Source: Methylotenera mobilis 13 (GTDB lineage: Bacteria; Pseudomonadota; Gammaproteobacteria; Burkholderiales; Methylophilaceae). Taken from it: 64,000 bases of DNA. The stretch is from contig NZ_KB913035.1 of assembly GCF_000384255.1 (NCBI RefSeq), positions 1,215,362 to 1,279,361 on the forward strand. The letters are read 5' to 3'. Positions 993 through 47,916 of this stretch are shown piece after piece. Positions within the stretch are counted from its first letter, which is position 1; each line of letters begins with the position of its first letter. The translations under genes were made by a program, and so were the position numbers. The notes under the pieces were generated by a model, which was not told the DNA's origin, did not search any database, and saw nothing but the letters and a program-made list of their open reading frames with translations.

Positions 993-2416
993 TTACGAGC
1001 AATCCTAAACTTATCCAACTCAGGGTTGTGGCTAGGCTGATGTTTTTCTAATATACGCTGATAACTACGTACTGACTCTACAAAAATAACGGGGGCACCG
1101 CCGCTGGCGTAGCCGTATTTGAGTGTGGTGTAGTACTCAGGGTTTTTCAATAGCACTAATGTTTTTTTCACATCCGCCCAACTATCTGGGTTTAATCCTA
1201 GTCTTTTTGCCAGTACCCGAGCGTCTTCAACGTGTGCATAGCCAATATTGTAAGAGGCGAGTGCCATGTAGGTCCTGTCTGGTTCTGGGATGCGTTCAGG
1301 GATAGTGTCGATTAGTTTAAGTAGGTACTTAGCACCCGCTGGTATGCTTTGCTTGGGGTCTAGTCGATCCGTCACACCCATCAGGTCTGCCGTGCCTTCT
1401 GTTAGCATCATCAGTCCTCGTACATTGGTTGGTGATGTGTTGTAGGTATCCCAATGTGACTCTCTATAACTCACTGCCGCGAGTAATCGCCAATCTATCC
1501 CTGTGATATCTTGAGCTTGTTTAAATAAATGAATATATTTAGGTAGTAGGCTATTGGTACGTTTTAGGAACGTGGTCACGTCTAGTGAATTAAGACGTTT
1601 GTTATGACCATAATAGCGATCAAGGAGATTGCGTAAGGTGCCATCTTTTTTGATTTTTGAAAAAAACGTATTTATCTTCGCAATGAGTTGTGGCTCAGAG
1701 TTTTTAGACATCGCCCATGCAATTTTATCAGCAGTTCCTATAGGCATGGCCACATCAAGGTTAGGGTGATAGTTTTGCATTAACGCAGCTAAATGGCTGT
1801 CAGCCACAGTGAAATCTAGCAAGCCATCTGCTACTTCCTCTAACAAAGACTCAGTGTTGGTACGTTTTGCACTATGCCATTTGAGTAAGCTATGCTTCTT
1901 CTGTAAAGCCGCTAGATGTTCCTCGTAACTTGTTCCTTCTGGCACGCTAATTTTCTTGTCGAAGATGTCGCTGATATCTTTTGGTTTTTTATTGACTTCA
2001 TTGTTGAAAATGAGTTGTTGTTGAGTTTCTTGATAGGGGGTTGAGAATATAACGAGGTGCTTACGCAGGTGAGTGACACTTAGGTTGGCGGCGGCAATAT
2101 GTGCCTTACCTTTCAGTAAGCTAGGAATAACATCACTGATACTGTTTACTAATAAAAAACGAACTTCATGATCAGGGAAGTAGGTTTTAACAAATAGCGA
2201 GGCTAGATCGTATTCAATCCCTGCTGGCTGGTTGTCGTTATTTAAATAATAGGTAGATGGGCCATTGTGGGTAACAAACACAATTTCCTTTTTATTGGGG
2301 TCGATAGCAGGGGCCTTGTCGACTTCATCTGCCGGTTTACAGCCAATAAAACAAATACAGAAAAGTGCGATAGAGATAGATCGCATCCACTGCTTATTTT
2401 TTAAAAAAGCTAACAA
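989..2416 (-). CDS. mltF: Membrane-bound lytic transglycosylase F-like lipoprotein
   Basis: This 475-residue protein starts with a lipoprotein signal ending in the lipobox FIGC (Cys about 26), so it should be lipid-anchored in the envelope. Residues about 42-270 form a periplasmic binding protein fold (SBP_bac_3), and residues about 300-440 form a lytic transglycosylase domain of the SLT type. The motif YRESHWD near residue 318 holds the predicted catalytic Glu, followed by GLMMLT. This two-domain order is that of MltF, which cleaves murein glycan strands and forms 1,6-anhydro-muramic ends. It lies 2 bp after rpiA on the same strand and is probably co-transcribed with it. It is somewhat shorter than the E. 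coli protein (about 518 residues). Confidence 0.85.
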   Translation of the reverse strand: MLAFLKNKQWMRSISIALFCICFIGCKPADEVDKAPAIDPNKKEIVFVTHNGPSTYYLNNDNQPAGIEYDLASLFVKTYFPDHEVRFLLVNSISDVIPSLLKGKAHIAAANLSVTHLRKHLVIFSTPYQETQQQLIFNNEVNKKPKDISDIFDKKISVPEGTSYEEHLAALQKKHSLLKWHSAKRTNTESLLEEVADGLLDFTVADSHLAALMQNYHPNLDVAMPIGTADKIAWAMSKNSEPQLIAKINTFFSKIKKDGTLRNLLDRYYGHNKRLNSLDVTTFLKRTNSLLPKYIHLFKQAQDITGIDWRLLAAVSYRESHWDTYNTSPTNVRGLMMLTEGTADLMGVTDRLDPKQSIPAGAKYLLKLIDTIPERIPEPDRTYMALASYNIGYAHVEDARVLAKRLGLNPDSWADVKKTLVLLKNPEYYTTLKYGYASGGAPVIFVESVRSYQRILEKHQPSHNPELDKFRIARN

Positions 2417-46167: not shown

Positions 46168-46186
46168 TTCTAACGTTCGAATTAAG
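46168..46186 (-). repeat. attC site C, R' half (interrupted)
   Basis: TTCTAAC (46168-46174, R' read in reverse) and GTTCGAATTAAG lead to the element core AG at 46185-46186. Joined to 47441-47479 this half restores a 58-bp attC close in length and sequence to site B. Confidence 0.8.
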
Positions 46187-46201
46187 ATACCGTCTTACCT
46201 G

Positions 46202-47182
46202 TCAAGCATTCTTAACAGCATAATTAGCATCAAAGGGTTTGCCTGACTTCAGCACCCCATAAATAATATGCAGTAACTTACGCATTACCGCGCCAATAAT
46301 CAGCATATTCGATTTACCTGCTTTCTTCAATCGTTGCGCAAACGCTTTAATGGTTGGGTTATAACGTCTTGCCACAACCGCAGGCATATACAACGCCTTT
46401 CTGATGGTGGCGTTGCCTTTCTTGGATAAGCGTGACTTACCTCTCACCGAACTGCCAGACTGATGTACGGTAGGATTCAAACCCACAAATGCAGCCAATG
46501 CCTTCGCATCATTAAAGCGATGTACATCTCCCACAAAAGCCAATAAGCGCGAAATGGTCGCGATTCCGATGCCTGGAATGCTGTCCAACAGATTAGATTG
46601 ATCCTTCAAATCAGGATGCCGGTCGATATGGTCGCGAATCATGCGTTCAACAGCCTTAATCTCAACTTTAATTGTAGCTAACACCGCCTTGATGGAAGGC
46701 TGAATCACAGGCGCAGCGGTACCGAAACGATTCTGTTCCTGACGTTCCATTTGTAGCAAAGCTGAAAGTCGCTGTACCAAAGCTTGTAATTCACGTACAT
46801 GCATAGGTGGCGGCATCCAAGCCGTTGGGTGCATACTGGCACAGAATTGTGCAATGAGTTTTGCATCGGCTTTATCTGTTTTGGCACGATTTAACTGCGC
46901 ACCACTAAAGCTCTTAATCTGCGCAGGATTCACCACGCTGACTTCAAAGCCTTGGTCATACAAATAAGTGGCCAATTCGTCACCGTAAGTGCCTGTGGCT
47001 TCCATACAGGCTTGCAGATGTGTGATGTCTTGCTTAACTAACCAGAGTGATAAGGCTTTAAAACCAACAAGGTTGTTCTCAAATACCCGTGACTTCTTCA
47101 CTTTGCCATATACAAGCAATGCCACATCAAACTTCGCTTTGGAAATATCAATGCCGAGTATCGGCAATTCAATGAAGGCCAT
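46202..47182 (-). CDS. IS110-family DEDD/serine recombinase
   Basis: A 326-residue recombinase. The N-terminal RuvC-like DEDD domain has GIDISKAKFD, MEATGTYGDE and KTDKADAKL. The C-terminal Tnp20 domain has SIPGIGIATISRLLAFVGD and GLNPTVHQSGSSVRGK, whose Ser is the likely catalytic nucleophile. I set the start at ATG 47182 (MAFIELPILG), with AAGGAG 7 bp upstream; the longer frame to 47239 runs into the presumed bridge RNA region. Such recombinases act with a bridge RNA that pairs with target and donor DNA. Confidence 0.94.
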   Translation of the reverse strand: MAFIELPILGIDISKAKFDVALLVYGKVKKSRVFENNLVGFKALSLWLVKQDITHLQACMEATGTYGDELATYLYDQGFEVSVVNPAQIKSFSGAQLNRAKTDKADAKLIAQFCASMHPTAWMPPPMHVRELQALVQRLSALLQMERQEQNRFGTAAPVIQPSIKAVLATIKVEIKAVERMIRDHIDRHPDLKDQSNLLDSIPGIGIATISRLLAFVGDVHRFNDAKALAAFVGLNPTVHQSGSSVRGKSRLSKKGNATIRKALYMPAVVARRYNPTIKAFAQRLKKAGKSNMLIIGAVMRKLLHIIYGVLKSGKPFDANYAVKNA

Positions 47183-47239
47183 GATTGAGCTCCTTACCAA
47201 CAAGTGAAATAAACACCCTAAGCGAACAACACATCCCAA

Positions 47240-47425
47240 TTCAGATCAACCTTGTGCATGCAGGATCATGACGTTATGTCAGTCCTAAGATACCGTCCGA
47301 TCTTGATGAATGTAGGTTGGGAGAAGGCCACTAATCTTAATTACTGGCTCTAAGGCCTTGGGGCGCGCTCAGCATCCCTTCTCCCGGCTCTTCGCGTCAG
47401 AGCAATTTAACTCATTTCTGAGTTG
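47240..47425 (-). ncRNA. Predicted bridge RNA of the IS110-family element
   Basis: On the minus strand, 5' to 3': hairpins AACTCA/TGAGTT (47409-47424) and GCTCT/AGAGC (47387-47403); then a loop closed by GGGAGAAGG/CCTTCTCCC (47377-47385 with 47319-47327); then a loop closed by AGATC/GATCT with an inner AGGA-TGAC/GTCA-TCCT hairpin. The first loop holds GCGCCCC (47360-47366) and AATTAAG (47336-47342), equal to the two sides of the attC target. The second holds GACGGTATCTTA (47286-47297), equal to the element-end junction at 46183-46194, and ACAAG (47251-47255), complementary to the other end. The order target loop then donor loop, and a length near 180 nt, match known IS110 bridge RNAs. Confidence 0.75.
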
Positions 47426-47440
47426 TTGGTAAGATACAAG

Positions 47441-47479
47441 GGGCGCCGTTAGGCGTCCCGCTTGAATGATGGGTTAGGC
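47441..47479 (-). repeat. attC site C, R'' half (interrupted)
   Basis: On the minus strand it begins with R'' GCCTAAC (47473-47479), then ATTCAAGCGGGACGCC and the central stem loop CTAACGGCGCCC next to the insertion core. It follows cassette ORF 1 and pairs with the R' half at 46168-46186. Confidence 0.85.
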
Positions 47480-47780: not shown

Positions 47781-47787
47781 CCTAACG
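47781..47787 (-). repeat. Single R' half-site at the upstream edge of the cassette cluster
   Basis: GTTAGGC on the minus strand sits directly before cassette ORF 1. The sequence beyond it (to about 47850) does not form a full attC, so it may be the remains of an attI or of a truncated attC. Confidence 0.5.
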
Positions 47788-47916
47788 TAAAGTAGGCATC
47801 CTATTTGACGGTTTTAAATGCGTCATTTGTGAATCCTAATAAAATTTTATAAATCAAATATATAATAAAATCATGATGTTAGTATTTTTTAGTGGTGCCT
47901 AAAATTAACACCAAAA

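Follow-up and report, generated by a model that had tools for sequence, protein, structure and literature searches.

A predicted bridge RNA matched to integron attC sites in an IS621-type insertion sequence of Methylotenera mobilis 13

The window, a stretch of 64,000 nucleotides from Methylotenera mobilis 13 analysed here as a whole, contains an IS110-family element which interrupts an integron attC site, and the question raised by this locus is how such an element finds its target. The answer that we regard as very probable is that the element is of the IS621 type and carries its own bridge RNA, the loops of which would read the 3' arm of the attC and the joined ends of the excised circle, with RNA-guided insertion at a CT core. 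This answer draws on the anatomy of the element, its ends, the fit between guides and targets, three insertions in attCs, the co-change of guides and targets among relatives and the covariation of the RNA stems, all of which can be read from the DNA itself. The features located in the window are collected in Table 1.

Table 1. Positions of the element, its predicted RNA and guides, and the interrupted attC in the window.
Feature	Position	Strand	Basis or remark
IS110-family element	46185..47440	-	1254 bp with one CT core counted; coordinates computed
CT core copies at both element ends	47440-47439 and 46186-46185	-	
DEDD recombinase, 326 aa	46202..47182	-	Pfam DEDD_Tnp_IS110 and Transposase_20; sole gene of the element
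Left part of interrupted attC (R'' GCCTAAC, L'', stem to GGCGCC)	47441..47479	-	Sequence, copies
Right part of interrupted attC (TAATTCGAACGTTAG)	46170..46184	-	Sequence, copies, joined-flank fold
Predicted bridge RNA region, about 197 nt, approximate ends	47242..47438	-	Covariance models and covariation
5' hairpin 1	47409..47424	-	Helix 1 of the A2 alignment: double changes in 5/6 pairs
Second 5' hairpin GCUCU...AGAGC	47387-47403	-	MFE fold
Target-binding loop	47319..47385	-	Outer stem GGGAGAAG/CUUCUCCC, apical GGC/GCC hairpin; helices 2-4 of the covariation analysis
Left target guide GCGCCCC	47360..47366	-	First internal loop; full stretch AGCGCGCCCCA
Right target guide AAUUAAG	47336..47342	-	Reverse complement of target CTTAATT, 7/7
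Donor-binding loop	47243..47303	-	Stem AGAUCGG/UUGAUCU, apical hairpin; helices 5-8 of the covariation analysis
Left donor guide GACGGUAUCUUA (GACGGTATCTTA as DNA)	47286..47297	-	12 bases identical to right-end junction 46183-46194
Right donor guide ACAAG	47251..47255	-	Complementary to CTTGT of left element end

The host genome is a single contig of 2.80 Mb. In the window, only 15 bases separate the stop codon of the recombinase gene tnp (46202) from the right core (46186), and a long non-coding region lies upstream of the gene. The ends of the element contain a perfect 7-bp subterminal repeat (TCTTACC/GGTAAGA), which by eye is weaker in the related element L033. The interrupted attC reads GGCGCCC-CT-TAATTC on the minus strand.

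In the preliminary description, made from the sequence alone, two hairpins and two internal loops had been placed upstream of the recombinase on the minus strand. All of these features are present, in the order 5' hairpins, target loop and donor loop, and the outer stem of the target loop was also obtained in the MFE fold. The fold of the single sequence was only moderately better than that of shuffles (z -2.14, with 4 of 200 shuffles equally good); since it is not extreme on its own, the decisive support for the predicted RNA is comparative. Covariation of the stems, the lack of which had been named beforehand as evidence against the reading, was detected in an alignment of six sequences, in which 16 of the 41 consensus pairs showed changes on both sides, a number reached by none of 500 shuffles. 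Sliding the partner columns by 1-3 positions reduced the paired cells from 91.8% to 28-43%. The count of further pair types was less striking, with 37 of 500 shuffles as high.

A covariance model built from three relatives (L033, L045 and L082), with the window left out, gave 47242-47438 on the minus strand as its sole match in the 64 kb, with an E-value of 6.1e-42. The second model (R1), for which the window was among the training sequences, also found the RNA at 47242-47438 and detected the same RNA at E <1e-5 in 29 of 35 other sources, including four training sequences, two identical copies of the window RNA (L004), one RNA ending at a contig end (L078) and one without an inner part (L081). 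Among the remaining six sources, L056, L057, L066 and L035 were matched at E-values from 2.3e-4 to 0.017, and L068 and L116 were unmatched at E 1. The search of the whole window against Rfam returned no family at gathering scores. The reading of a complete predicted bridge RNA came through the computational checks proposed earlier.

The reading of the two loops given in the preliminary description was confirmed. The first loop carries GCGCCCC and AATTAAG (47366-47360 and 47342-47336), the two sides of the attC, and the second one contains both the 12-nt copy of the element-end junction and ACAAG, at positions in agreement with those described. The ACAAG motif was invariant across an alignment of 26 sequences, the window included. 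Among 20,000 dinucleotide shuffles of the 197-nt RNA, GCGCCCC occurred in 151 and AATTAAG in 347; both target guides in the right order were present in none of them, and the same was true of the 11-nt donor guide. The further claim that guides and CT core agree was correct for the target, donor and core readings and less so for the left target guide. The latter (AGCGCGCCCCA) fitted its own target (ACGGCGCCCCT) at 8 of 11 positions, 7 of them contiguous, and had an A in place of the U expected opposite the second core base. The same letters fitted the attC of a genome of the same genus (G151) better, at 10 of 11 positions.

The recombinase combines the two domains by which the IS110 family is recognized, DEDD_Tnp_IS110 as the N-domain (E-value 4.1e-26) and Transposase_20 as the C-domain (5.9e-29), and scored 238.5 bits against a cut-off of 140 with the NCBIfam model NF033542 (IS110 family RNA-guided transposase). 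Its closest solved homologues were IS621 (8wt6, E 5.7e-81) and ISCro4 (E 6.7e-80). In a tree of 36 proteins, IS621 and the window protein fell together in a clade of 28 rows (support 100/100); the nearest neighbour of the window protein was L033 from a Gallionellaceae genome (77% identity, support 100/99), with L082 next to this pair (support 99/93). The tree contained no IS1111 reference, and the element was placed relative to IS1111 by comparison with IS621, by the location of the RNA relative to the gene and by which guide comes first, rather than by an IS1111 protein tree. Besides grouping with IS621, the element possesses a non-coding region with a predicted RNA upstream of the gene (start at 47182) and the IS621-type guide layout, i.e., two internal loops with the left guide first, target and donor both matched and the core included; the single exception is the core U missing from the left target guide. 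As judged from these sequence features, the element is an IS621-type, IS110-group insertion sequence. As a separate observation, the recombinase (46202-47182) also gave a weak match to the TIGR-Tas endonuclease model NF052498, below the cut-off (39.3 bits vs 100).

It is very unlikely that the element simply belongs to the IS1111-attC group described in 2008-2009, with nothing different about it. The target class would be the same, as the IS1111-type elements ISKpn4, ISPst6, ISPa25 and ISPa21 are reported in attCs, and the insertion at a fixed attC point, seen in the three copies and in relatives, is a feature of that group. IS1111 subterminal inverted repeats are reported as usually 11-13 bp long, or 7-17 bp in another source, so the perfect 7-bp repeat of the window element corresponds to the lower end of one published range. 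However, the extensions at its ends are not those of 7 and 3 bp given for IS1111. Moreover, the non-coding region is located upstream and not downstream of tnp, and the guide for the bottom strand precedes that for the top strand, which is the IS110 order, whereas a top-strand complement ahead of a bottom-strand match is characteristic of the IS1111-attC group. The closest structures, IS621 and ISCro4, and the position of IS621 inside the same clade also argue against such an assignment.

Two further copies of the element are present about 1.35 Mb from the window, in two consecutive cassettes adjoining the genome's only integron integrase above the model cut-off. The three copies, identical at 1253/1253 bases, share their insertion point and orientation in three different attCs and terminate three cassettes with different genes. 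The joined flanks of all three fold as attC hairpins with paired R'/R'' boxes; they were folded with one extra T, the core being counted twice, by which the stem fold was unaffected. The origin of the copies from cassette duplication, recombination between arrays or gene conversion, instead of repeated targeted insertion, appears highly improbable, since three different cassettes each carry the element within their terminal attC, the cassette protein at the window could be aligned with neither of the other two, and relatives in other genomes occupy the corresponding point of their own attCs. Such an origin would fit the identity of the copies and the near identity of their attC cores, as well as the resemblance of the attI-like starts of the two arrays and the weak similarity (29% over 63 residues, E 4e-4) between the gene behind the window copy and that behind the third one. 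Repeated targeted insertion is preferred. Regarding the movement among cassette arrays claimed in the preliminary description, two arrays about 1.35 Mb apart are occupied within this genome; movement between genomes is a step that we infer.

The cassette array of the window is headed by an attI-like stretch (47782-47906, minus strand), which is identical at 107 of 125 positions to the segment that separates the integron integrase from the first cassette in another part of the genome (L004, ~2215-2339). The gene beside it encodes an acetate-CoA ligase, and the only integrase above the cut-off is that at the other array. The window array looks like a second, integrase-less integron platform.

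The joint change of loops and flanks in homologues, which had been proposed as a check, was found in three pairs of right target guide and attC: AAUUAAG/CTTAATT in the window, AGCUAAG/CTTAGCT in L033 and ACAUAAG/CTTATGT in G151. The fit was 7/7 in each of them, with three different sequences, and these three attC-reading guides provide the clearest evidence of co-change. In L033, the six bases after the right core are TAGCTA and the attC-like left flank fitted the left guide at 10 of 11 positions. The right flank of G151 reads CTTATGTCAAACGTTAGAGC, its left and right ends (guide and target) being taken from two contigs of one assembly. The right flank of G574 reads CTTAGCTGCACGTTATGC, that of G040 (CTTAATTTAACGTTACATGCC) is less clearly attC and that of G573 is 6 bases long only.

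The least orderly case is G144, in which the left flank of L076 is at best a degenerate attC, with a left guide fit of 7/11. One right flank in this genome is attC-like (CTTAATTCGTTAGGG) and another, CTTTATT, is not. The latter belongs to L043 (94% identical over its 70 residues) and differs by one mismatch from the guide of L076, located on another contig. Copies in other targets with an unchanged loop had been named in advance as evidence against the reading; the three attC copies agreed with it, and the non-attC flank of L043 did not. A different kind of locus was observed in G811, in which L081 (~1494-1623, minus strand), with a truncated left end and the target-loop half of the RNA only, is located in an attC-like site that, as judged by eye, the left guide fits poorly. 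No recombinase match was obtained in G811 at E 1e-25, and L081 is probably what is left of an earlier insertion.

More distant elements (37-55% protein identity where tabulated) have the same kind of RNA and the CT core, with other targets and matching guides. The guide test required the donor-loop motif, and L035-L038, L048, L056, L060 and L061 are among the relatives outside it. From 41 raw hits, one chance hit in the window and three loci with no recognisable left junction (L032, L051 and L059) were taken out; G151, added from its two contigs, brought the number to 38, and the removal of one duplicate left 37 elements, 30 of them with a complete right flank. The set comprised 32 distinct left targets and 17 distinct right guides. 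The mean fit of the left target guide to its own target was 8.43 of 11 in the 37 elements compared with 6.70 after permutation, and that of the five non-core bases of the right guide was 3.53 in the 30 elements compared with 1.79. Neither value was reached in 20,000 permutations, although these counts are not strict probabilities, because the elements are related and many of them share targets. The fit of the left guide to its own target was below the mean fit to other targets in five of the 37 elements (L006, L047, L049, L096 and L097). Eleven of the 30 right guides fitted at 7/7, 17 at 4 to 6 and two (L086 and L112) at 2 positions.

For the last two elements, the right junction is directly followed by CGTAT, which resembles the left-end start of the group targeting GACC and suggests abutted or nested elements. 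A recurring target was also observed: L006, L047-L050, L052, L085 and L088 have the right guide GGGTCAG and are located before GACC(C/T) or a similar sequence. Many other relatives are located at TGCCCACCCTAC-type sequences.

The element is rare among the genomes sampled. Searches for the RNA by DNA matched G573 itself only among 349 genomes of its order, three genomes besides the own one among 369 of the class and four of seven chosen genomes; the left end was not found in G040, G574 and G125. No relative was found in the viral collection by tblastn at E 1e-3. The plasmid search gave 4557 records, all below 60% identity, and none of them entered the guide test.

Among eight attC and attC-like sites that were folded, paired outer boxes in the best fold were obtained only at the three own insertion sites. 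The best folds of the two intact window attCs and of three composite sites of relatives lacked them, and these five sites are therefore called attC from sequence boxes only. The exact 13-base site matching the guides, GCGCCCCTTAATT, has no free copy in the genome. Allowing one mismatch gave a single genome match, outside any attC-like context, and up to two mismatches gave 37 matches, little above the 28 of a reversed-pattern control; no AACGTTA box was present within 60 bases at the 30 of these 37 near-matches whose surrounding locus was examined. The two intact, unoccupied attCs of the window array failed to match the guides: in one of them the right half alone is retained (GTCAGCCCTTAATT), and from the other the CT core is missing. 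The specificity for a conserved part of attC, as put forward in the preliminary description, therefore needs narrowing: the guides do match an attC, but what the left guide matches is a stem arm belonging to one type of attC and is not universally conserved. Recognition of the folded attC hairpin by the recombinase itself, as by IntI, with merely incidental loop matches, is conceivable because several targets of relatives are imperfect palindromes by eye (e.g., GTGGGCA...TGCCCACCCT), but it is extremely improbable in view of the unoccupied attCs of the same array that lack a guide match, the co-variation of guides and targets across elements with attC and non-attC targets, and the right-order occurrence of both guides in 0 of 20,000 shuffles.

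In the preferred reading of RNA-guided insertion, the first loop (GCGCCCC/AAUUAAG) would read the 3' arm of one attC type, the second loop would read the joined ends of the excised circle, and the recombinase would exchange target and donor at the CT core. By such an exchange, the element would enter matching attCs at one fixed point, with no duplication of the target, and would point the same way as the cassette. In the joined ends, TTGACA, which overlaps the tnp stop codon, lies 17 bp from TATCTT, and the same -35/-10 arrangement with the same spacing is present at the junction of L033. Excision as a circle would probably join this -35 sequence to the -10 sequence, and the resulting junction promoter would drive expression of both the bridge RNA and tnp in the circular form. 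A circle-junction promoter was reported for the IS110-type relative ISEc21 (PMC11187229). Insertion would part the two attC stem arms by 1.25 kb; with its attC hairpin split in this way, the cassette would probably be locked and lose its mobility. In this scheme, the production of the RNA, the strand exchange, the use of the promoter and the effect on cassette mobility are what we infer.

Taken more broadly, it seems likely that an IS621-type lineage gave up other targets, of which several look palindromic to the eye, and adopted attC separately from the IS1111-attC group. It would then have followed the attC types of its hosts, its right guide being rewritten in at least three ways (CTTAATT, CTTAGCT and CTTATGT), and become a specialised parasite that reaches the chromosomal integrons of Methylophilaceae and Gallionellaceae by RNA guidance. 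The closely related bridge RNAs, with guides tracking different attC sequences, form a natural retargeting series, which could calibrate guide rules and mismatch tolerance without engineering. The data suggest that both branches of the IS110 family reached attC separately, which in turn suggests that attC is a recurrent niche for RNA-guided elements. The splitting of the attC hairpin is a testable mechanism by which cassette arrays might become frozen.

In IS621 (Durrant et al. 2024, PMC11208160), the bottom strand is paired by the left guide and the top strand by the right one, the core included. The present element resembles IS621 in a recombinase homologous over its whole length, the RNA upstream of the gene, the target loop followed by the donor loop, the left guide before the right one and the CT core in target and donor. 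It differs in that attC would be read rather than the IS621 target, in the 7-base pairing of the right target guide, which corresponds to the extended form, and in the perfect 7-bp subterminal repeat, which contrasts with the 2-3 bp reported for IS110-group ends. With ISEc21 (IS110 type, Siddiquee et al. 2024, PMC11187229) it shares the upstream non-coding RNA, here predicted, the probable promoter formed in the circle and the lack of target duplication, but the target of ISEc21 is a codon stretch of IS3-family transposase genes and not attC. The IS1111-type attC-targeting elements of 2008-2009, as cited in PMC11187229 and PMC11616780, include ISKpn4 and ISPst6, the guide RNA (seekRNA) of which co-purified with the transposase (Siddiquee et al. 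2024). Like them, the present element is inserted at one fixed point of certain attCs; it is opposite to them in both the side of the RNA and the order of the guides, and their subterminal repeats are longer as a rule. No description of an IS110-type attC element was found in the freely accessible papers searched, including PMC12444791 and PMC11089894. The targeting of attC by IS elements is already known, and what appears new relative to these papers is its combination with a predicted upstream RNA, a reversed guide order and an IS621-type recombinase.
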